Of a stretch of DNA of 36,465 nucleotides, positions 9,340 to 31,533 are shown piece after piece. The position numbers and the translations under genes are program-made. Every line of letters begins with the position of its first letter. Within the stretch, counting starts at the first letter, position 1. The stretch spans positions 1 through 36,465 of the forward strand of contig REDH01000122.1 in NCBI GenBank assembly GCA_007693585.1. The letters run 5' to 3'. The DNA is from Deltaproteobacteria bacterium (GTDB lineage: Bacteria; Myxococcota_A; Bradymonadia; REDH01). The notes below the pieces were generated by a model. It saw only the letters and a program-made list of their open reading frames with translations, did no database searches and had not been told where the DNA came from.

Positions 9340-12300
9340 TCAGGACGCGAAGGAGCCCTGCTGCTGGTACCAGTGCTCGACGACCCGCTTGGCCACCAAC
9401 TGGTCCCGTCGCGACGCATCCGGGTGATAGTCGACCTGGAGCCCGGGGAGGTCCCGGAGTGCCCGGGCGACATTCTCGCGAACCCGCGGCGAGGTGTGGG
9501 TCATGGCTTCCAGAAGCCAGGACAGTCTGCCGTCGTGCCCGTGGCGAGCGTACCAGCGGGACCAGGGGGCGGGATGGGGATCGAAGTCCATGCAGGTGAG
9601 TCTCCCCAGCACCTGGTGGGCCCTGCGCTGCACGCGGGCACTGGGGTGCTGGAGGAGCTCGATGAGGACGGGGACGGACTCCTCGTCGCGGAAGTGGAGC
9701 AGGGCGGAGAGGGCGAGTTCCTGTTCGCGCGAAGCGCCCTCGAGGGCCCTTCGTCGGAGCCAGTCGAGCAGGAGGTCGAAGGCCCGCGTTCCTCGGAGGC
9801 CTTCGAGCAGGTGAAGCGCGAAGTTGCGCAGCGGTGGGTCCGAGTCGAACACGAGGGTTCGCGCGTATCGGGCCTGCGCGGTGATGTCGAGGTGTCGAGC
9901 GAGCAGGCGGAAGGCGTAGTAGCGGGCCTCGTCGGAGCCGTGGCCGAGGACTTCCACGAGTCCGTTGCCGAAGGCCGTGATGTTCCGGTCCATGAGACGG
10001 AGGAGTGGTCCGTGCTCGTCCACGGGACGGCGGGCCTCGTTGGGTGCATGGCGGTCGAGAAACAGTCGACCCGGGAATGCGCGCAGGATTTCCGCGCCCC
10101 ACTCGCCTGCGCCGAGGGCGTCCTGGAGGTTCTCGATGCGCTTGTCGGCGAGGGGTTCGCGGGCATTGAGCGCCTCGAGCTGTTCGCGCAGCTGTTGCCG
10201 CGCCTCCCGGGTTCGTTCGTCCTCGTTGGCGGTGAGGACACCGGGCTGGTCGATGTCGAGGTCCTGCACCGGCCGGGCGAGTGCTTCGGCATCGACGACG
10301 GGCACGTCCCGGGAGAACGATACCGTTCTCCCCGGGGCCACGGTGGACACCTCGGCGGCACCACGCATGAGCTCGTCCTCGATGAGGACGGTGGCCTGTC
10401 GCGGTGCCGGTCTCAGGTTGCCTGCGGGAGAGGGGTCGACCGGCACGTTCTCGATCATGGAGAGGGTGCGGCCGGTGGCGCGATCCGTCTCCCCGGCCGG
10501 CAGGCCGCCATCGAGGGTGACCGTGTGTCCGGTCTCGCCGCCAGCCGTGGTTGCGGACTCGACAGCGTCGCGCGACATGGACAACGTGCTGCCGGGCGGG
10601 TCCGCGGCGCCGGGGGACGGCGCTCCGGGACCGGCAGCGTCTGCGTCGAATTGCGCAGCAAGTTCGTCGCGAGACAGCGACAACGTGCTCCCGGGCGAGT
10701 CCGCGGCGCCGGGGGACGGCGCTCCGGGACCGGCAGCGTCTGCGTCGAATTGCGCAGCAAGTTCGTCGCGAGACAGCGACAACGTGCTCCCGGGCGAGTC
10801 CGCGGCGCCGGGGGACGGCGCTCCGGGACCGGCAGCGTCTGCGTCGAATTGCGCAGCAAGATCGTCGCGGGACAGCGACAACGTGCTCCCGGGTGACTCA
10901 AGGCTCTCGGCCGAACGCGCGTCGAGCGACACGGGCAGCTCGTCGCGAGAAACCGACAATGTGCTCCCGGGTGACTCGGAGGCCCGCGAGTCGTCGGACT
11001 CGACGGGCCGGGAGGCCTGGTTCCAGGACGCGCGGCTCAGGCCGAGTCCGCCGGGCCGTGACCCTCCCGGGTCGGTCGGTGCTTCGTGCGCCAGCGCTTC
11101 GGCGTCCGCGAGACCAGGGGCGTTGGGCAGCACGCCCGCCGGCTCAGCCGTCTCTTCCTCACCTGCCTCGTCGGCCCTGGCCGCTTCCGGGGACTGTTCG
11201 ACCGGATCCTCGCGTCGCGCGATCAGGGTGGTGCTGCTCCGGGAACGAACCGCGCGCTGCCTTGGGCGGCGGAAGGTCATCGCATCCGGCAAGCTCTCGG
11301 CGGAGGCTTCGTCCGGCGCGGAGGCTTCGTCCGGCGCGGAATCCTGGTTCGGCACGGAGACTTCGTCCGGCGCGGAATCCTGGTTCGGCACGGAGACTTC
11401 GTCCGCGGCGAGGGGGGTCGATACGGGAGAGCTCACACCCACAAGGGTGGTCGACGCGGACCGCTTCAGGTGGGCGTCGCGGTCGGAGCGTTCGTTGGCG
11501 GCCTCACGTGCGGCGAACGCGGCGGCTTCCTGGGCGGCGGCTTCCGCGGCGAGGGCACGCGCGAGGGCGACACCCGGATCCAGCCCGGGTGCGGTGGCGT
11601 ACCGCTCGGATGCGTCGACGACCACCTGATCACCCGTCACGTTCATTGGCCGGGTCACGCGCGGGTTGCGATGGAGGGTCGACGGAGTGGGCTCGGGGGC
11701 GAGTTCGAAATCCCAGTCGTCTTCCGCCTCCCAACCGCTTCCCGCGGGCTCGCTGGCCGCCTCCGCGGACTCCGCAGCGATCTCGTCGCCGTCCTCGATC
11801 GTGGCCGGCACCGCATCGATCGGCGGAGCGGGTTCGGTGGCCGTGGGCTCCGACGCGGGGGCGTCGGGTTGCTCCGGCGTGGTGCGCGTGGCTGGCGGTT
11901 CGTCCGGTGCATCGCGCTGCGCATCGGGGCCGGGGGTGTCCGCTGCGAGGCGCTCGGGGGTCTGGACCGGGGAGTCGGGAGCAGACGCCTCGGCGTCATC
12001 GGGGGTCGGGGTGGCAGCGGAAATCTCGGCAGACGGCTCGGACGGAGGAGTTGCATCCTCCGGGGTGGCGTCCTCCGGCGCGGCGTCCGCCGGCGCGGTA
12101 TCCTCCGGGGTGGCATCGGCGGCGTCCTCCGGCGAGGCGTCGACGGCGTGGGCCGAGTCATGGGATTCGGCGGGTGGCTCGGAGGGGGGTGCGGAGGTCT
12201 CGGATGGGGGTTCCGGGGTGGGCTCTGGTGATGGGGTGCTGTCGGCGGTGGTGGGCTGTTGTCGTTCGGCGACGATGAGGCGGGCGATGGTTTCGCCGGC

Positions 12301-19890: not shown

Positions 19891-21693
19891 TCAGTCGAGG
19901 ATCTCGATGGATTCGACCCTCCAGCCGTCAAGAGACGGAGTCTCGACCGCATTGACGGAGCCATCGGAGACCACGCCGACGGTGAACTGGTTGGAGGGTA
20001 CGTCGAAGGTCGCCACGCCGGTGCCGCACACCGCATCGCCGACCTGGTCATCGCCGACGAGATCGAAGACGATGAGGCGGTCCCAGCTGCAGGTGGCCTG
20101 GAACTCGATGCTGTGACGAATCGTGACCCGGACTGCGTTGGCACCGGGCACCTCGAACTCTCGCCAGCCGAGGTCTCCGCTGGAGTTGGTCTCGTTGTTG
20201 TCGTAGAGGACCCACTCGGAGGCGCCGGGGTAGGGGGCCTGCACGGTGGTGAAGTCGTCGGTGTCGAGCTCTCGGACACCGAACTCGACGATGGGTGGAA
20301 CCACGACGAAGACGCCGTCGCCGATGACTTCGAGGAGAAGGTTTGCTCCCGCGGCGCTGGGGTACGCGATGGCGCGCACGGTGGCGCCTGGGGCTGCGGG
20401 GATGCTGTAGAGGAGGTCGGCGTCGCCGTCGCCGTTGACGTCGAGGCCGACGGTGGCCGCGCCGGCGTCGATGACGATGAAGTCGCTGGCGGAGCCGAAT
20501 TCGACGCCTTCGAAGAGGAGGGTGTCGTCTTCCTCGCCGATGGCGAAGATGTTGACGGCGCCGACGTCCGGGGCGGCGTGCACGGCACCGATGGCGGTGC
20601 TGTCGCCGTCGACGTCGAGCGTGGGGTTGTCGAGGGACAGGACGGCTACGCCGTCGGCGGTGTCATGGGCGAGCAGGGTGATGTTGGCGCCGAGCACGAA
20701 TTCGAAGCCCTCGATGGTGAGGGCGGCGTCTTCTTCGCCGGCGGGGAAGATGCGGATGTCGACGAGTCCGCTGTCGGGGGTGATGGGTCCGACGCCGTTG
20801 CCGAGGCCGAGTCCGGTGATGGTGGTGCCGTCCTCGGGGTCCCCGCCGGCCTCGACGACGTTGATGTCGACGGAGGCGGGGGCGTTGGTGCTCGCGTGGA
20901 GGATGGTGACGGTGGTGATGGCCGCCTCGACTTCGGGGAGGGTGAAGTTGGTGGTGGCGATGGAGCAGCCGTCGGTGGCGATGAGGGCGACCATGGCGCT
21001 GGCGGTGCCCGCGGGGCCGGCGGTGACGGTGAAGGAGCCGTCGGCGCTGGCGGTGAAGGCGTGCGGTGCGGCGGTCACGAAGGAGAGCTGCAGGTCGAGG
21101 TCGGTGTCGATCTGGAGGCTGGCGGCCTCGCTCGTGCGTTCGTCGAACAGCCGCTCGGGGAGGTTGTCGATGGCATCGATCGCGAGTGCGGGCACGTCGG
21201 CGCAGGCGGCATCCGCGCCGTCTTCGCCATCGGCGCCGGTGGCGCCGTCCGAACCGTCGGCGCCGGTGGCGCCGGGCTCGCCGTCGGCACCATTGCAGAC
21301 GGTCTCGGTGCCGAGGATCTCGTCGCCTTCGAGCTCGCCGTCGCCGTCGAGGTCGACGCCGTAGGTGAAGACGAAGCCGCCGCTCGGGCACAGTTCACCG
21401 GGCTCGATCGGGGTGGTCTCGACGAGGCCGGGGGCACCGGCGGGGCCGGGATCGCCGTCATTGCCGTCGTTGCCGTCGTTGCCGGTGGGACCTGCGGGGC
21501 CCTGCGGGCCGGCGGGGCCGGCGGGACCATCGGAGCCGGCGGGTCCGGCGGGGCCGGCGGGGCCGGCGGGGCCTTCCGGTCCGGTTTCGCCGGGTGCGCC
21601 GTCGCTGCCGTCGCTGCCGCTGCAGCCAGCGGCGCCGAGGAGGAGGGCGCTGGAGAGAACGATCCAGCGGATGAGGGTGGGGGATCGACGCAT
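19891..21693 (-). CDS. Collagen-like lipoprotein with DUF4397 domains
   Basis: The 600-residue product has a lipoprotein signal (LLLGAAGC, Cys24) followed at once by about 21 collagen-type G-X-Y triplets (residues 26-88). A short Cys-bounded domain follows (C-P-S-G-G...[14 protein letters not shown]...V-C-N-G), seen in many deltaproteobacterial collagen-like proteins, and then nine more triplets. The middle holds two DUF4397 units ([20 protein letters not shown] and [19 protein letters not shown]), beta-sandwich domains of exported proteins. The last 140 residues ([30 protein letters not shown]) look CUB-like. A fibrous stalk with binding domains at the cell surface is a fair inference. GGAG 8 bp before the ATG at 21693 supports the start; the frame is open to 22035. 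Confidence 0.85.
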
Positions 21694-21904: not shown

Positions 21905-22549
21905 TCAGGTGCTGGCGGGTCGCCAGGGCTTGAGGGGCTTGGGGAGGAAGCGGACGGCGCCGGCGTGCTGGTAGCGGGAGGCGCCGTCGTAGGCGGCGTG
22001 GGTGGGGGTGGCGTAGTGGAAGACGACCTGTGCAATGGGGGTGCCGACGGCGACGGCGACGGCGCCGCAGTCGACGACGCGGACTTCGAGGGCCCAGCGG
22101 CTGACGTAGCCGACGTCGCCGAGACCGGCGCACAGGGCGACGGTGAGGCCCTGGCGACCGACGGTGGACCGGGCCTTCATCTCGGGGACGATGGCCTGGC
22201 CGTCTTCGGCGCCGCCTTCGAGGGCGCGTGCGCCGATGGCCTCGAGGGTGGTGGCGAGGTAGAAGCCGCCGCTGTCGAGGATGAAGCAGGGGTCGTCGTC
22301 GTGGAGGGTGGGTGCCACGAACGAGGGGTGACGTTCGCGGATGCGTCCTGCGGGGACGGTCTCGACCTTCTCCCACTGTTCGGGGCGGTCGCTGTAGAGG
22401 TCACGGAAGCCGTCGTTTCGGAGGCGGAAGAGGTCGGCTCCGAGTCGGACATCGACGGAGTTGATGCCGACGAGGCCTTCCTCGAAGGGTTCGATGACGA
22501 TGTGACCATCCTCGCGCTTGCGGAGGATGTCTTCGCGGCAGAGGATCAT
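21905..22549 (-). CDS. dcd: dCTP deaminase family protein
   Basis: Enzymes of this family deaminate dCTP to dUTP, some also hydrolysing it to dUMP, as a source of thymidylate precursors. The 214-residue chain keeps the family order: NSVDVRLG (residues 30-37), FYLATTLE, ARSTVGRQG (126-134, nucleotide-binding Arg/Ser), RWALEV with Glu155 at the place of the catalytic Glu, G-T-P-I-A-Q, and a C-terminal R-Y-Q. The segment before the Glu reads AGLGDVGYVS instead of the usual DPGWSG, so activity on dCTP is likely but a related substrate cannot be excluded. AGGAA 6 bp before the ATG supports the start. It is the next gene after the sensor of the potassium cluster, with a 124-bp gap, and may be transcribed separately. 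Confidence 0.85.
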   Translation of the reverse strand: MILCREDILRKREDGHIVIEPFEEGLVGINSVDVRLGADLFRLRNDGFRDLYSDRPEQWEKVETVPAGRIRERHPSFVAPTLHDDDPCFILDSGGFYLATTLEAIGARALEGGAEDGQAIVPEMKARSTVGRQGLTVALCAGLGDVGYVSRWALEVRVVDCGAVAVAVGTPIAQVVFHYATPTHAAYDGASRYQHAGAVRFLPKPLKPWRPAST

Positions 22550-22673: not shown

Positions 22674-23798
22674 TCAGGTGGGGGAGTCATCGTCACGGTT
22701 GAGGAGGTCGCTGGCGGTGGCGGAGGTCGGTCTTCGTCTGGGGATGCTCTCGACGAGCCATCCGACGGGTCGGGAGGGGGGGGCGATGAGGAGGGTGACG
22801 CGGAGGTCGGGTCGTCCGGATGCGGCGAAGGTGCGTTCGATGGGGTCGACGTGGTCCATGTCCATGACTTCGCGGCGGCCCTGTTCGCGGATCCAGGTGG
22901 CGACGTCGGAGAGGCGGTTGAGCATGCGGTCGGGGCAGGACTCGGCGATGAGTTCGCCGTCGAGGCCGAGGAGTGCGGAGCCGATGGCGCGGGAGTCGAC
23001 GAGGGCGAGGAGGATCTGTCGTTGCTGGTTGAGCTGTCCGCGGACGCGTTGTTCGAGTTCCTGTTGTCGGTCGAGGGCGAGGTTGAGCTGTCGGGCGAGG
23101 AGTCCGAGTTCGTCGTTTCGGTCTGCGGGCATGCGTCGGCCGGTTTCGCCGGAGGCGATGGCGGAGGCGGCGTCACGGGCTTCGGCGAGTCGCTGGAGGA
23201 ACTCGACCTGGAGGGCGCGGGAGAGGAAGCCCATGGAGAGGAGGGCGAGGACGACGATGAGGCCGAGGGCGATGGAGGAGCGCTGGGCGGCGACGCGGGT
23301 CTCGTCGTCGGCCTGGAGCATGGCGAGGTGGTGTGCGTCGAGGAGGGTGTGGAGGAGGTCTCGGGTTTCGCGCAGGGGCGCGGAGAGCTGCTCCTCGTAG
23401 GTGGCGAGGGGGATGGGGCCGGCGTTGTCGAGGACGCGTTCTCGGGTGGTGCGCAGCGTGGTCCATCGATCGACGAGTCTGGCGATCAGTTCGGTCTCTT
23501 CGTCGATGCGGGTGAGTTCGGCGGCCTGGTGGAGGAGATCCTGGACGGCGAGGTCGGATCGCCGGAGTTCGTCGTGGACGTCGGTGCCGGCGAGGAGGGC
23601 GGTGAGGGTGGCGGAGTCCTGCCGCTCGATCTCTTCGAGCATGCGCATGGTGATGGTGACGGCGCTGACGTTCTCGCCGAGGATGCTGTCGAGTCCGGCG
23701 CTGATGCGCTGGAAGGCGACGTTGGCGGTGACGGCGGTGAGCAGGAGGAGGAGGACGAGGTAGGCGTAGCCGAGGAGGACGCGGGTCTGGAGGTTCAT
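22674..23798 (-). CDS. Membrane sensor with four-helix-bundle and HAMP domains, without kinase domain
   Basis: The 374-residue product has two membrane segments (residues 8-28 and about 170-190) that enclose a helical periplasmic domain of about 140 residues of the 4HB type. The second segment continues into a HAMP domain (LQRLAEARDAASAIASGETG...RNDELGLLARQLNLALDRQQ) and a coiled coil. The last 110 residues (SALLGLDGELIAESC, VTLLIAPPSRPVGWLVES) resemble a small PAS or roadblock-like fold. No histidine kinase, methyl-accepting or cyclase motif follows. The start lies only 3 bp after the ktrA stop, so it is probably cotranslated with the potassium channel genes and may sense membrane or ionic conditions for them. 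This link is inferred from position. Confidence 0.8.
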   Translation of the reverse strand: MNLQTRVLLGYAYLVLLLLLTAVTANVAFQRISAGLDSILGENVSAVTITMRMLEEIERQDSATLTALLAGTDVHDELRRSDLAVQDLLHQAAELTRIDEETELIARLVDRWTTLRTTRERVLDNAGPIPLATYEEQLSAPLRETRDLLHTLLDAHHLAMLQADDETRVAAQRSSIALGLIVVLALLSMGFLSRALQVEFLQRLAEARDAASAIASGETGRRMPADRNDELGLLARQLNLALDRQQELEQRVRGQLNQQRQILLALVDSRAIGSALLGLDGELIAESCPDRMLNRLSDVATWIREQGRREVMDMDHVDPIERTFAASGRPDLRVTLLIAPPSRPVGWLVESIPRRRPTSATASDLLNRDDDSPT

Positions 23799-23801
23799 GG
23801 T

Positions 23802-24458
23802 TCAGGCCCGTGCGGCGAGTCGTCGGATGGCGTCGTGGTTGCCGATGACGAGGAGGATGTCTCCGGAGCGGAGCTTCTCGGTGGCCCTGGGGTTGGAGAC
23901 GACGTCGTCGACGCGTCGGATGGCGACGACGGAGACATGGTAGCGGTTGCGGATGTCGAGTGACATGAGGGATTCGCCGACGAACGCTTCGGGGGTCTCG
24001 ACCTCGGCGAGTTCTGCGTTGTGGCCGAGGGCGAGGCGGTCGATCAGGGAGGGCTGGGCGAGTTTCATGGCGACGCGAGCGCCCATTTCGTCTTCGGGGT
24101 TGATGATCTCGTGTGCGCCGACGGCGGTGAGGACGCGGCCGTGGAGCTCGGAGACGGCGCGGGCGACGATGCGCGGGGTGCCGCGTTGTCGGAGCAGTGC
24201 GGTGGTGAGGATGGAGGCTTCTCGGCTTTCGGCGCCGATGGCGACGATGACGGTGCCGATGCGGCCGAGCCGCAGCTCGTCGAGGACGTTCTCCTGGGTG
24301 GTGTCCGCGGTCATGGCGGCGTCGACTTCGTCGGCGAGGCGCTCGACGCGGTCTTCGGAGACGTCGATGGCGAGGACGCTCTGTCCCTGTCGGGCGAGAT
24401 TGAGGGCGAGGGAGGTGCCGAAGCGTCCGAGCCCGATGACGGCGAATTCTCCGTGCAT
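23802..24458 (-). CDS. ktrA: Ktr potassium uptake regulatory subunit (RCK protein)
   Basis: This cytoplasmic gating subunit binds nucleotides and controls the K+ channel subunit KtrB. It has one RCK_N Rossmann domain (GLGRFG at residues 9-14, acidic residue in AIDVSED after the second strand) and one RCK_C domain from about residue 135 (VETPEAFVGESLMSLDIRNR...LRSGDILLVIGNHDAI). The length of 218 residues fits KtrA; TrkA has two such units. It begins 28 bp after the ktrB stop, with an AGGA in between, so the two are one operon. Confidence 0.93.
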   Translation of the reverse strand: MHGEFAVIGLGRFGTSLALNLARQGQSVLAIDVSEDRVERLADEVDAAMTADTTQENVLDELRLGRIGTVIVAIGAESREASILTTALLRQRGTPRIVARAVSELHGRVLTAVGAHEIINPEDEMGARVAMKLAQPSLIDRLALGHNAELAEVETPEAFVGESLMSLDIRNRYHVSVVAIRRVDDVVSNPRATEKLRSGDILLVIGNHDAIRRLAARA

Positions 24459-24486
24459 GGGGAGGGTCCTGTGGGGTTGGGGTGGT

Positions 24487-26565
24487 TCAGCCGACCATGA
24501 TGTCGGTCTCCGGGTAGCGGATGTGCCGCTCGACGGTCTTGAGGAGGAAGAGCGCGATGGTGAGGGGTCCGGTCCGTCCGATGAACATGATGGAGGAGAC
24601 GAGGAGCTTTCCGCCTTCGGAGAGGTGTTCGGTGGCGCCGAGGGAGAGTCCGACGGTGCCTGTGGCGCTCATGGCTTCGAAGGCGAGGACTTCGAAGGGG
24701 AGGTCCATGGTGACGAGGAAGGTGAGGAAGGTGAGGAGGAAGATTCCGGCGAAGATGACGGCGATGGCGGCGGCGCGGTAGACGGCGGACTGGGCGATGC
24801 GGCGACCGCCGAGGACGACGCGCGGTTCCCCTCGTCCGATGGCGGGGATGGCGGCGAGCAGGAGGATGAGGGTGGTGGTCTTGATGCCGCCTGCGGTGCT
24901 TCCCGGGGAGCCTCCGATGTACATGTAGACGATCGAGAGGAGGACGGTGGCGGGTTCGATGGTGTCGAGGTCGACGGAGTTGAAGCCTGCGGTGCGGAGG
25001 CTGACGCCCATGAACATGGCGTTGGTGAGGCGATCGAGGGTGGGGAGTCCGGCGAGGGTCGCGTTCCATTCGAGGGCGGCGTACCAGGCGATGGCGGAGA
25101 GGGCGAGGAGGGCGGTGGTGGCGAGGACGATTCGTCCGTGGAGCGAGAGGTTGGCGCGTCCGCCGCGGACCCGTTTCTGGAGGTAGAGCCACAGCGCGGA
25201 GAGCACGAGGAATCCGGTGCCGCCGAGGAGGATGAGGATGCTGAGGACGGTGAGCGCGAGGGGGTCGTCGCGGAAGAGTTCGACGGAGTCGGACTGGAGG
25301 GCGAAGCCGGCGTTGCAGAAGGCGCTGATGCTGTGGAAGACGGCCTTCCACAGGGCGTCGGGGAGGGCTTCTCCCTGGAGGTGGAAGGCGCGGGTGAGGA
25401 CGGCGGCGCCCGCGCCCTCGATGGCGAGGGAGGCGAGGACGACGAAGCGGGTGAGGCGGTAGGCGCCGGCGGGTCCGCGCAGGTCCATGAGCTCGGTCAT
25501 TCCGGCTTCGCCGCGCAGCCCGAGTCGCCCTCCGACGAGGAGGGTGGCGAAGGTACCGAGCACCATGATGCCGAGTCCTCCGGCCTGGATGAGCAGGAGG
25601 ATGACGACGTGGCCGAAGGTGGAGAAGTCGGTGGGGGTGTCGAGGACGATGAGCCCGGTGACGCAGGCGGCGCTGGTGGCGGTGAAGAGGGCGTCGATGG
25701 GGGCGACGGGGGCCCCGGAGGCGGAGGCGGCGGGGAAGGAGAGCAGGAGGGTGCCGAGGAGGATGAGGCTGGCGAAGGTGGAGAGGACGAGGAGGCCGGG
25801 TCGGGTGAGGAAGTGGCTGACGAGTTCGCGGACGAGCGGCCCCTTTCCGACGAGGAGGACGAGGAGGATGCTCTGGTAGAGGGCGAGGACGGCGAGGGTG
25901 AGCTGGGGGTTGAAGGGGAACCATCCGATGGCGAGCAGGGGGAGTGCGAGGAGGGTGACGCGTCGGCGGCCGTCCACCCAGTAGAGCCGCCACATGGGCG
26001 TGGTGGAGAGGAGCGCGAGCAGGTTGAGGGCGAGGCATCCGATCTGGGCGACGAGGTTGTCGGGTGCGGCGAAGCCGGTGATGGCGATGGTGGCGATGAC
26101 GGTGACGCCGGTGAGGTGTCGGGCGATCTGGCCGTCGTGGGCGAACCAGTGAGCGATGCGTTCCTCGAAGGGGTCGTCGGCGGCGGGTACGGGGCTGGCG
26201 CGGGACGCTCTGGGTGGGGGGAAGAAGGCTCGCGCGAGGAGCATCAGGCACCAGAGGACGACGATGCCGGAGACGAGCGGATCGTGGGCGAGGGCGGGGA
26301 GGAACGCACCGATGTGGAGGGCGAGCACAACGGGGGTGGCTCGGCGCACGAGTGCGGGCCGGGGTCGGCGCAGCGCGGCGAGGGCGAGTCCCGTGGTGAC
26401 GGCGAGGGTGCCGTAGATCTCGCCGAAGCGGGTGGTGTCGTCGGCGAGGCCGAAGTACCCTCCCGGCATGTCGACGAGGAGCTGGGCAAGGGCGGCGATG
26501 AAGCCGATGCCGAGCAGGCGCGCGGCGTCGAGGCGCGCCTGCAGGCTGTGGTCCGGGGAGGGCAT
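24487..26565 (-). CDS. ktrB: Ktr/Trk potassium transporter subunit with extended N-terminus
   Basis: The last 450 residues form a TrkH/KtrB channel: four pore loops are visible (SAACVTGL, SAFCNAGF, SLRTAGFN and SATGTVGL), as well as the intramembrane loop GGSPGSTAGGIKT that gates the pore. In front lie about 240 residues that KtrB lacks: two groups of hydrophobic segments separated by a polar linker (DDPFEERIAHWFAHDGQIAR). With them the protein has 692 residues instead of about 450. Extended TrkH proteins are known from other phyla, but the role of the extra membrane part is not clear to me. Its gene leads the ktrB-ktrA-sensor cluster and is divergent from prkA across a 211-bp gap. K+ uptake is secure; Na+ dependence cannot be judged. 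Confidence 0.92.
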   Translation of the reverse strand: MPSPDHSLQARLDAARLLGIGFIAALAQLLVDMPGGYFGLADDTTRFGEIYGTLAVTTGLALAALRRPRPALVRRATPVVLALHIGAFLPALAHDPLVSGIVVLWCLMLLARAFFPPPRASRASPVPAADDPFEERIAHWFAHDGQIARHLTGVTVIATIAITGFAAPDNLVAQIGCLALNLLALLSTTPMWRLYWVDGRRRVTLLALPLLAIGWFPFNPQLTLAVLALYQSILLVLLVGKGPLVRELVSHFLTRPGLLVLSTFASLILLGTLLLSFPAASASGAPVAPIDALFTATSAACVTGLIVLDTPTDFSTFGHVVILLLIQAGGLGIMVLGTFATLLVGGRLGLRGEAGMTELMDLRGPAGAYRLTRFVVLASLAIEGAGAAVLTRAFHLQGEALPDALWKAVFHSISAFCNAGFALQSDSVELFRDDPLALTVLSILILLGGTGFLVLSALWLYLQKRVRGGRANLSLHGRIVLATTALLALSAIAWYAALEWNATLAGLPTLDRLTNAMFMGVSLRTAGFNSVDLDTIEPATVLLSIVYMYIGGSPGSTAGGIKTTTLILLLAAIPAIGRGEPRVVLGGRRIAQSAVYRAAAIAVIFAGIFLLTFLTFLVTMDLPFEVLAFEAMSATGTVGLSLGATEHLSEGGKLLVSSIMFIGRTGPLTIALFLLKTVERHIRYPETDIMVG

Positions 26566-26762
26566 GGGGCGGCTGGGCGGCGGCGTACTTCGGGGAGAAT
26601 CCCGGGGTCATCCCTTGCGCGACGGGCTTTGCGTGGCAAGAAAATCCGGGAAGGGAAGGGCAGCCCGTGCCGGGGACCGGGAATGAAAGCCGGCCGGTGG
26701 GCGTCCTTCTTCCTGAAGCCCGGCCGGGTGATCGGCCGTGGCCGCCCTCAGCCGAACCGACG

Positions 26763-26769
26763 AAGGGAG
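26763..26769 (+). promoter_or_regulatory. Ribosome binding site of prkA
   Basis: AAGGGAG lies 7 bp before the ATG at 26777 and excludes the in-frame ATG at 26738 as the main start. Confidence 0.65.
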
Positions 26770-26776
26770 ATCGCGC

Positions 26777-28831
26777 ATGGCATCCAGCTCGCTACTGTCC
26801 CGGCTCGCCCCCCTGCAGGACCTGGAGCAGTACCAGGACCTCCACTGGTCGGGATCGTTCGACGACTATCTCGCCCTTGTGCGGGAGGATCCGCGGGTGG
26901 TGCGCACCGCCTACCAGCGGGTGTACGACATGATCCTGTCGCACGGGAAGGAAGAGTACATCGACAACAAGAAGCGCATCGTGTCGTACGCCTTCTTCCG
27001 GGACGAGCGCAACGGGGGCAAGGACGCGATCTACGGGCTGGACATTCCGCTGATGCGGCTTGTGAACGTGCTTCGTTCGGCGGCGGAGGAGTACGGGGCG
27101 GAGAAGCGCATCATCCTGCTTCACGGTCCGGTGGGGTCGTCGAAGTCGACCATCGCCCGTCTGCTGAAGAAGGGCATCGAGGCGTATTCGCACACGGACG
27201 ACGGGCGGCTGTACACGTACGAGTGGGTCCTTCCTGAGGACCTGCGGGGGATCTCCGGGGGTCAGGAGGTGTTTCCGTGTCCGATGCATGACGAGCCGCT
27301 GAAGCTGATCCCGGCGGAGTGGCGGTCGCGGGCGTTCGAGGCGCTGGGTCTGCATGACAACCCGTTCGCGCACCGCGTCCGGGGCGATCTGAATCCCGCG
27401 TGCCGGTACATCTTCAACGCGCTGATGGCGCACTACGCGGGCGACTGGACGAAGGTGATGCAGCACGTCCGGGTGAAGCGGCTGCTGCTGTCGGAGCGGG
27501 ATCGGGTGGGGATCGGGACGTTTCAGCCGAAGGACGAGAAGAACCAGGACTCCACGGAGCTGACGGGCGACATCAACTACCGGAAGATCGCGATCTTCGG
27601 CTCCGACTCCGATCCGCGGGCCTTCAACTTCGATGGCGAGTTCAACATCGCCAACCGGGGGATCATCGAGTTCATCGAGATTCTGAAGCTGGACGTGGCG
27701 TTCCTCTACGACCTGCTCGGTGCGACCCAGGAGCGGAAGATCAAGCCGAAGAAGTTCGCCCAGACGGACATCGACGAGGTGATCATCGGCCACACGAACG
27801 AGCCGGAGTACCGGAAGCTGTTGAACAACGAGTTCATGGAGGCGCTCCGGGACCGCACGGTGAAGATCGACATCCCGTACATCACGCGGTACCAGGAGGA
27901 GATCCGGATCTACAAGAAGGACTACAATTCCGAGCGTATCGGGCGGCACATCGCGCCGCACACGATCGAGATGGCGGCGCTGTGGGCCGTGCTGACGCGC
28001 CTCGAGGATCCGAAGAAGCACGACCTGACGCTGATGCAGAAGCTGAAGCTGTACGATGGTCGGACGATCACGGGCTACACGCAGGATCACGTCAAGGAGC
28101 TGCGCAAGGAGACCGAGCGGGAGGGGATGGTGGGCATCTCCCCGCGCTACGTACAGGACAAGATTTCGAACGCGCTGGTCAGCGACAAGGCGGACGGAGC
28201 GATCAACCCGTTCATCGTGCTCGCGGAGCTGGAGAGCGGCCTGCGCAACCACTCCCTGATCACCGGGGAGGAGGACCGGAAGCGCTACACGGTGCTGCTG
28301 GCGGAGGTCCGCCGGGAGTACGAGGACATCGTGAAGAACGAGGTCCAGCGCTGCATTTCCGCGGACGAGGACGCGATCAGTCGGCTGTGCGCGAACTACA
28401 TCGACAACGTCAAGGCGTATACCCAGCGCGAGAAGGTGCGGAACAAGTACACGGGTCAGTACGAGGAGCCGGACGAACGGCTGATGCGCTCGATCGAGGA
28501 GAAGATCGACATCCCCGAGAGCCGCAAGGACGACTTCCGTCGCGAGATCATGAACTATATCGGCGCCCTGGCGATCGAAGGCAAGCAGTTCGACTACCGG
28601 ACGAACGATCGTCTGAAGAAGGCCCTCGAGATGAAGCTGTTCGAGGACCAGAAGGACACGATCAAGCTCTCGAGCCTCATCTCGAACGTGGTGGACAAGG
28701 AGACCCAGGAGAAGATCGACGTGGTGAAGCAGCGGATGATCCGCAACTTCGGCTACAACGAGGAGTCGGCGACCGACGTGCTCAACTTCGTGGCGAGCAT
28801 CTTCGCCCGGGGCGACAGCAAGGACGGATGA
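26777..28831 (+). CDS. prkA: PrkA/YeaG-type serine protein kinase with AAA+ domain
   Basis: PrkA proteins combine an AAA+ ATPase domain with a C-terminal kinase-like region and act in sporulation or stress and nutrient-limitation responses. The 684-residue chain has Walker [10 protein letters not shown] at residues 117-125, with Ser-Ser in place of the more common Gly-Gly, and the family's segments [40 protein letters not shown] and the HTNEPEY motif. Length is close to the 640 residues of E. coli YeaG. It heads an operon with yeaH (34-bp gap) and spoVR, the arrangement found in many bacteria. The start is fixed by AAGGGAG at 26763-26769. Confidence 0.96.
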
Positions 28832-28865
28832 GCTCCCCCTCGCTGCGTTGCGCGCCGGAGGCTGC

Positions 28866-29972
28866 ATGAAGATTCGTCAGGACCACAACCGCTTCAAGGA
28901 GATCGTCCGGGGGCGCATCAAGAAGGAGCTGCGCCGCTACATGGCCAACGGCGAGCTCATCGGCCGCCAGGGGCAGAAGGAAGTGCGCATTCCGGTGCCC
29001 CGGATCGACATCCCGCGGTTTCGATACGGATCGAAGGATCAGGGCGGCGTGGGGCAGGGCGAGGGGGAGGTCGGTGACTCCCTCGGCGACGGCGATGGGC
29101 AGGAGGGCCCGGGTCAGGGGGAAGCCGGAGAGCAGGAGGGCGCCAAGGAGCTCGAGCTCAGCGTCACCCTCGACGAGCTCGCCGAGATCATGGCCGAGGA
29201 GCTGGAGCTGCCGAACATCCAGCCGCGCGGCGAGCAGCGCATCGCTTCCACCCGCGCCACCTATCGAGGGTTGCGTCCGGTGGGACCGGACGCGCTCCGG
29301 CACATGAAGCGGTCCTACAAGGAAGCGCTCAAGCGGATGATCTCCACCGGGGAGTACGACCCGGACAACCCGGTCGTCATCCCCCGTCGGGAGGACATGC
29401 GCTACCGGTCGTGGGCGGAGGAGGAGATCCCGGCCACCAACGCGGTGATCGTGTACATGATGGACGTGTCGGGATCGATGGGCGACGAGCAGAAGGAGAT
29501 CGTCCGCATCGAGTCCTTCTGGATCGACACGTGGCTGCGCACCCAGTACCGAGGCATCGAGTCACGGTACATCATCCATGACGCGACCGCGCGCGAGGTC
29601 GATCAGCACACGTTCTTCCATACCCGGGAGAGCGGAGGAACGATGATCTCGAGCGCCTACAGGCTGTGCATCGACATCCTCGAGGCGGACTATCCGGCCA
29701 GCGAGTGGAACATCTACCCCTTCCACTTCTCGGACGGCGACAACTGGTCGGTGGATGACACGGCCCAGTGCATCCAGCTCCTGCGGGGCGGGATCCTGCC
29801 CCGGGCCAACATGTTCGGCTACGGGCAGGTGGAGAGCCCCTACGGCTCCGGACAGTTCATCAAGGACCTGCGGGAGCACTTCGGCAAGGAGGAGCGGATG
29901 GTCCTCTCGGAGATCAAGAACCGCGACATGATCTTCGACAGCATCAAGACCTTCCTCGGCAAGGGCATGTGA
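28866..29972 (+). CDS. yeaH: YeaH/YhbH family protein with VWA-like MIDAS motif
   Basis: YeaH is the conserved partner of PrkA; its biochemical role is not settled. The 368-residue product starts with [17 protein letters not shown], typical for the family, has a Gly/Glu-rich linker (about 60-95), and a C-terminal domain of von Willebrand A type with an intact D-x-S-x-S (DVSGS, residues 200-204), a metal-dependent adhesion site. E. coli YeaH has about 427 residues, so this is a compact version. GGAGG 4 bp before the ATG at 28866 supports the start. It lies between prkA and spoVR; the moxR gene further downstream encodes a possible AAA+ partner for the VWA domain. Confidence 0.93.
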
Positions 29973-30030
29973 TGCCGTCGCCGTCGCCCCCTCCCGCCGG
30001 ATCCACCCGACGACAGCCCCGGACGAGATC

Positions 30031-31529
<1,499 letters not shown>

Positions 31530-31533
<4 letters not shown>

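Follow-up and report, generated by a model that had tools for sequence, protein, structure and literature searches.

A kinase-less membrane sensor is encoded as the third gene, behind ktrB and ktrA, in most Myxococcota that carry this type of ktr operon, and conservation of the operon supports counting the sensor-bearing ktrBA as a new Ktr variant for potassium uptake. The third protein resembles the front part of a sensor kinase but has no kinase domain, suggesting direct action of extracellular signals on the channel. From operon conservation and domain architecture we infer that the third protein may be a dedicated sensor subunit, a third Ktr component that modulates KtrAB gating at the protein level, a proposal to which we would give an even chance. 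The operon described here was read from a 36,465-nucleotide stretch of DNA, called the window below, in which its genes and their main parts are placed as follows.

24487 to 26565, minus strand: ktrB, channel subunit of 692 amino acids (Pfam TrkH, E 4.4e-55; TIGR00933, E 3.2e-94)
25807 to 26565, minus strand: KtrB residues 1-253, the N-terminal extension, with 8 predicted transmembrane helices
24490 to 25806, minus strand: KtrB residues 254-692, the canonical channel core, by end-to-end alignment with B. subtilis KtrB
23802 to 24458, minus strand: ktrA, cytosolic gating-ring subunit of 218 amino acids with a single RCK unit (TrkA_N, E 3.2e-25; TrkA_C, E 3.5e-13)
22674 to 23798, minus strand: kinase-less sensor of 374 amino acids (HAMP by Pfam, E 5.6e-8; AF2 model)
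23067 to 23198, minus strand: HAMP domain, sensor residues 201-244 (Pfam PF00672)
22746 to 22991, minus strand: PAS-like domain, sensor residues ~270-351, by strand and helix order in the AF2 model and by the register of kinase relatives

The three genes lie in the order ktrB-ktrA-sensor on the same strand with gaps of 28 and 3 nt, forming a tight operon, and the arrangement is not a matter of chance, because about 50 operons from other genomes show this order too. Promoter, terminator and Rfam scans gave empty or chance-level results. In the sequence-only reading of this DNA, the third gene had been described as a 4HB-HAMP protein beginning 3 bp behind ktrA and devoid of any output domain. 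Its position and its lack of an enzymatic output were borne out, but a conserved PAS-like domain follows the HAMP domain at residues ~270-351, so the description as a protein without any output domain does not hold. The enlarged KtrB of the same reading does have its extra membrane part, of 253 residues rather than the 240 that had been given.

By its core, its single-RCK KtrA and its gate elements, the ktrBA pair of the window is, as judged from sequence, a Ktr potassium uptake system. In the alignment with B. subtilis KtrB, residues 254-692 of the window protein pair with residues 15-445, and the core matches KtrB structures at E 7e-70. Among 11 homologues, the filter glycines G304, G420, G527 and G639 are invariant, as are the gate elements, i.e., loop lysine K562, gate (D4M2) arginine R664 and C-terminal G692; the KtrB core therefore looks canonical. 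Equivalents of the loop lysine, the D4M2 arginine and the C-terminal glycine are named in published work on KtrB (PMC12059179). KtrA consists of one RCK unit, shorter than the two-RCK organization that would mark a TrkA, and retains the GxGxxG nucleotide motif; its best PDB matches are B. subtilis KtrA (E 3.8e-55) and KtrC (E 2e-43).

Conservation of the window KtrB extends over its full length, extension included, in 10 relatives. Residues 1-253 are without counterpart in the KtrB proteins of B. subtilis and V. alginolyticus. An AF2 model computed from a profile of 31 extensions (mean pLDDT 84.7, pTM 0.72) has eight helices in two sets of four, and the extension is thus modelled, with fair confidence, as an eight-helix membrane domain. 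The two four-helix groups may represent an internal repeat. Searches of the extension found nothing within cut-off in Pfam, no sequence match of note in the PDB and no PDB fold match at E<=0.001; that it lacks a Pfam family can be set beside the dozens of Myxococcota KtrB proteins that have such an extension. It sits at the site of the regulatory N-terminus of V. alginolyticus KtrB, which is short and disordered, lies between the KtrA ring and the channel, is required for ATP activation and opening, and helps relay the KtrA signal to the gate (PMC12059179).

The sensor is arranged as a first transmembrane helix, a periplasmic helical bundle, a second transmembrane helix, a HAMP domain, a coiled coil and a C-terminal part of ~100 residues with the PAS-like domain. 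Its HAMP domain carries a DELG motif that is invariant in 11 homologues, and a weak match to 4HB_MCP_1 covers residues 2-125 (E 2.8e-4, below the curated cut-off). Within residues ~270-351 the segments L..LDG..IA and RPVGWLV are conserved, with the RPVGW of the tail nearly invariant among the relatives aligned. The AF2 model of the sensor is of moderate confidence (mean pLDDT 77.9, pTM 0.44) and places strand-strand-helix-strand-strand-strand in this part, which is the order of the PAS fold. At ~80 residues the domain is shortened with respect to the 100-110 of that fold, and Pfam recognizes a PAS domain in few of 40 family members. The nearest PDB fold of the sensor is the sensor-TM-HAMP portion of NarQ (E 1.1e-4). 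By Pfam, HisKA, HATPase_c and MCP signalling domains are absent from the window sensor, and HisKA, HATPase_c, MCPsignal, GGDEF and PP2C/phosphatase domains from all 40 members of its family.

The closest relatives of the sensor that are not linked to ktr in the phylum are kinases of ~600 amino acids with the order 4HB-HAMP-PAS-HisKA-HATPase_c (loci L128-L141), none of which lies beside ktr in the kinase loci examined. Sensor residues 1-290 match these full kinases by profile with E down to 3e-34, and the Pfam PAS domain of the full-length kinases begins at residue ~264, in the same register as the PAS-like domain; the layout of the sensor is therefore that of a kinase truncated after its PAS domain. 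A shorter variant of the sensor (the short type) has a periplasmic motif RMxPAIExIxxEN, a degenerate HAMP domain and, in most members, the PAS-like part. Four short-type sensors (L176, L179, L184, L189) lack the PAS-like part, which argues that it is not the only contact. In three operons the third gene encodes an unrelated periplasmic part, yet is still of the 2TM-HAMP-PAS kind with no kinase (one is among the 48 KtrA-linked sensors described below and two came from a TrkH search), and the kinase-less plan is thus kept while the input differs.

Linkage of the sensor to ktr was evident first of all within the class to which the window belongs. Sensor homologues were found in 12 of its 58 searched genomes besides that of the window, among them Lujinxingia vulgaris (Bradymonadales) and several MAGs. 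All 13 class sensors, the window's included, lie directly behind ktrA, two of them cut by contig ends; the adjacent ktrA products are 53-59% identical to the window KtrA, and ktrB precedes ktrA wherever the contig extends that far. An independent search with KtrA returned as the closest KtrA proteins exactly the sensor-bearing set. A contig search with the single sensor sequence gave no matches, and one with the sensor alignment gave class-type loci only.

Across the phylum, a KtrA profile search of 379 Myxococcota genomes identified 53 places at E<=1e-50, two of them at a contig edge. A kinase-less sensor with two transmembrane helices stands behind ktrA in 48 of the 51 matches with a readable downstream gene, a count that includes two sensors cut by contig ends but recognizable (G030 and G046); most of the 48 are of the short type. 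From ktrA stop to sensor start the median distance is 3 nt, with 44 of 49 pairs at 50 nt or less and 15 of 49 overlapping, often by 4 nt. Conversely, a profile of the short-type sensor at E<=1e-50 identified 37 places, of which 35 are behind ktrA, one is at a contig start (G183) and one is a lone sensor (G178; L248 3484-4356, minus strand) with no ktrA or ktrB nearby. The next matches of this profile begin at 5e-30 and get weaker; most of them are full kinases or sensors of another type linked to ktr. The sensor is thus found beside ktr nearly everywhere it occurs. Genes 3' of the sensor vary among genomes, indicating that there is no second constant partner, and no finding of the kind that would have counted against the sequence-only reading, i.e., a sensor absent from ktr loci elsewhere or tied to something else, was made. 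A plasmid search for the sensor gave no match, and the best KtrB matches on plasmids from other phyla comprise the core only; in the five such regions inspected, a small sample outside Myxococcota, no kinase-less sensor is adjacent.

The gene next to the sensor in the window (21905-22549, minus strand) encodes a divergent dCTP deaminase-like protein that is below the NCBIfam cut-off for dCTP deaminase. It was considered as a partner of the sensor and rejected, as it does not recur behind other sensors. Beyond it, at 19891-21576 on the minus strand, a surface-type protein is encoded that has DUF7151, DUF4397 and collagen-like G-x-y repeats. At 26738-31533 on the plus strand, and divergent from the ktr genes, PrkA kinase, DUF444 (YhbH/YeaH) and SpoVR genes follow in a row, which is the widespread PrkA-YeaH-SpoVR trio. 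A 99-bp tandem repeat of 3.3 copies (96% matches) occupies 10566-10893, in a region where a minus-strand frame has HEAT repeats.

Sensor and channel also appear to have been inherited together. The sensor tree and the KtrB-core tree agree in setting apart three groups, those of the class, the short type and a third type. Four genomes (G013, G016, G019, G021) have two ktrBA-sensor operons each, and every sensor groups with the clade to which the KtrB of its operon belongs. Distances between sensors correlate with those between KtrA proteins (r 0.77 overall; within the short type r 0.34, a value reached in 5 of 2000 permutations), both values including whatever species kinship contributes; KtrB distances were left out as unreliable, since some cores had been covered in part. 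By hydropathy, an extended KtrB was scored in 48 of 50 operons with a sensor and 6 of 13 without one, before correction. One of the two exceptions with a sensor (L233) was then dropped as cut by a contig end, the window was added, and another (L234), scored as extended solely through residues ahead of its likely start, was corrected, giving 49 extended and 1 not extended with a sensor, and 5 extended and 8 not extended without. The KtrB-core tree has three changes for the extension and four for the sensor, and with so few changes a test of extension against sensor on independent pairs cannot reach significance. The pairing of the sensor with an enlarged KtrB, which the sequence-only reading had noted in this operon, is seen widely, though it derives from few independent events.

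Other states of the operon exist. In one family (f16) all readable ktrBA operons (loci L194, L198, L200, L232) are without the sensor, and in its place behind ktrA is a gene read from its sequence as metallo-beta-lactamase/flavoprotein-like; four KtrB proteins of this family are extended, by 2 to 4 helices, yet have no sensor. Since some ktrBA operons have no sensor, the channel can work without one. In genome G064, an unextended ktrB-ktrA is directly preceded, on its own strand, by genes for a 4HB-PAS histidine kinase and an NtrC-type regulator (L251 3475-6644, minus strand), and this kinase is possibly a kinase-borne counterpart of the kinase-less sensor.

Taken as a working model, the sensor would be a dimeric membrane protein whose periplasmic helical bundle reads an extracytoplasmic cue, for which osmolarity, ionic strength or a cell-envelope ligand would be natural guesses. 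The cue would be relayed through the second transmembrane helix, the HAMP domain and the coiled coil to the PAS-like tip, which could act on the KtrA ring or on the KtrA/KtrB interface and so bias the ATP/ADP-dependent gating. The KtrB extension might be the membrane docking site of the sensor, or might supply another input to that interface, since the KtrB end that it extends helps relay the KtrA signal to the gate in V. alginolyticus. In its complete form, the model describes a channel with a built-in receptor, in which the kinase-less HAMP-PAS subunit would hand an extracytoplasmic signal straight to the channel or its RCK ring, with neither phosphorylation nor transcription, and with the eight-helix KtrB domain as the dock; we hold this full version to be plausible, at somewhat below an even chance.

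Other interpretations of the same operon have to be weighed. The principal one is that the sensor forms mixed dimers with a histidine kinase, or some other enzyme, encoded elsewhere and that it reports on or tunes transcription under potassium or osmotic stress, the operon reflecting co-regulation only. That the nearest sensor relatives are full 4HB-HAMP-PAS histidine kinases agrees with this, as does the kinase and NtrC-type regulator by ktrBA in G064, a layout indicating that such sensors can be tied to ktr through transcription. However, the genes behind the kinase-less operons include no recurrent kinase or regulator, and in the two-operon genomes the sensors sort with their own KtrB type, and we consider an unlinked enzyme partner unlikely. 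Nearly the same low probability is assigned to a third protein that serves the structure or assembly of the enlarged KtrB, as a membrane scaffold built on an old HAMP fold and carrying no signal. Such a role would fit the co-occurrence of sensor and extension, the degenerate short-type HAMP domain and the loss of the PAS-like part in some members; most members nevertheless keep both the periplasmic domain and the PAS tip, and the exchange of the periplasmic part while HAMP-PAS is kept speaks for an input role.

Signal flow might also be reversed, the KtrB extension being the true sensor and driving the HAMP protein, which would read out the state of the channel. In favour of this, extension and channel are a single fused protein, and the HAMP protein could pack its two transmembrane helices against the extension, much as transducers do with sensory rhodopsin; the HAMP protein, however, has no output domain with which to pass such a reading on, and reversed flow seems improbable. 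Lastly, the gene could be the decaying remnant of a histidine kinase beside ktrBA, as its layout of a kinase cut off after the PAS domain might imply. The kinase-less reading frame is intact in about 50 operons, which span dozens of families, and the HAMP domain and the C-terminal tail have invariant residues; this makes decay very improbable.

HAMP domains are, to our knowledge, among the commonest bacterial signal relays, and nearly all that we know of end in a kinase, chemotaxis domain, cyclase or phosphatase. A HAMP sensor without enzymatic output that is operon-linked to a potassium channel across much of a phylum thus offers a testable case for direct gating. A full-text search, with most subscription journals outside its scope, found no paper joining KtrB or RCK with a HAMP domain. 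The 4HB/HAMP/PAS histidine kinases share the sensor's order of helical bundle, second transmembrane helix, HAMP, coiled coil and PAS, whereas the window sensor ends before HisKA. Another potassium uptake system with its own membrane sensor is kdpFABC with KdpD/KdpE, where KdpD is a kinase acting through transcription; the window operon resembles it in having a membrane sensor of its own and differs in having neither kinase nor regulator. The TrkH-TrkA systems belong to the same channel and RCK superfamily, but TrkA has two RCK halves (~460 amino acids), and the Trk loci L219-L230 have no sensor of the window kind. In Synechocystis KtrABE, a third component, KtrE, is required for uptake (cited in PMC11078986); KtrE is not described as a HAMP sensor, a contrast with the window sensor in description rather than in sequence. 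The KtrAB systems of V. alginolyticus and B. subtilis (PDB 4j7c, 5but, 7zp9, 8k1s) share the KtrB core, having the same filter glycines, loop lysine, gate arginine and C-terminal glycine and a single-RCK KtrA; they have no described sensor gene, and their KtrB proteins, of ~445-455 amino acids, have a short N-terminus where the window KtrB has a membrane domain. The HAMP sensor kept in the operon also pairs naturally with recent evidence that KtrA-to-gate signalling involves the N-terminus of KtrB.
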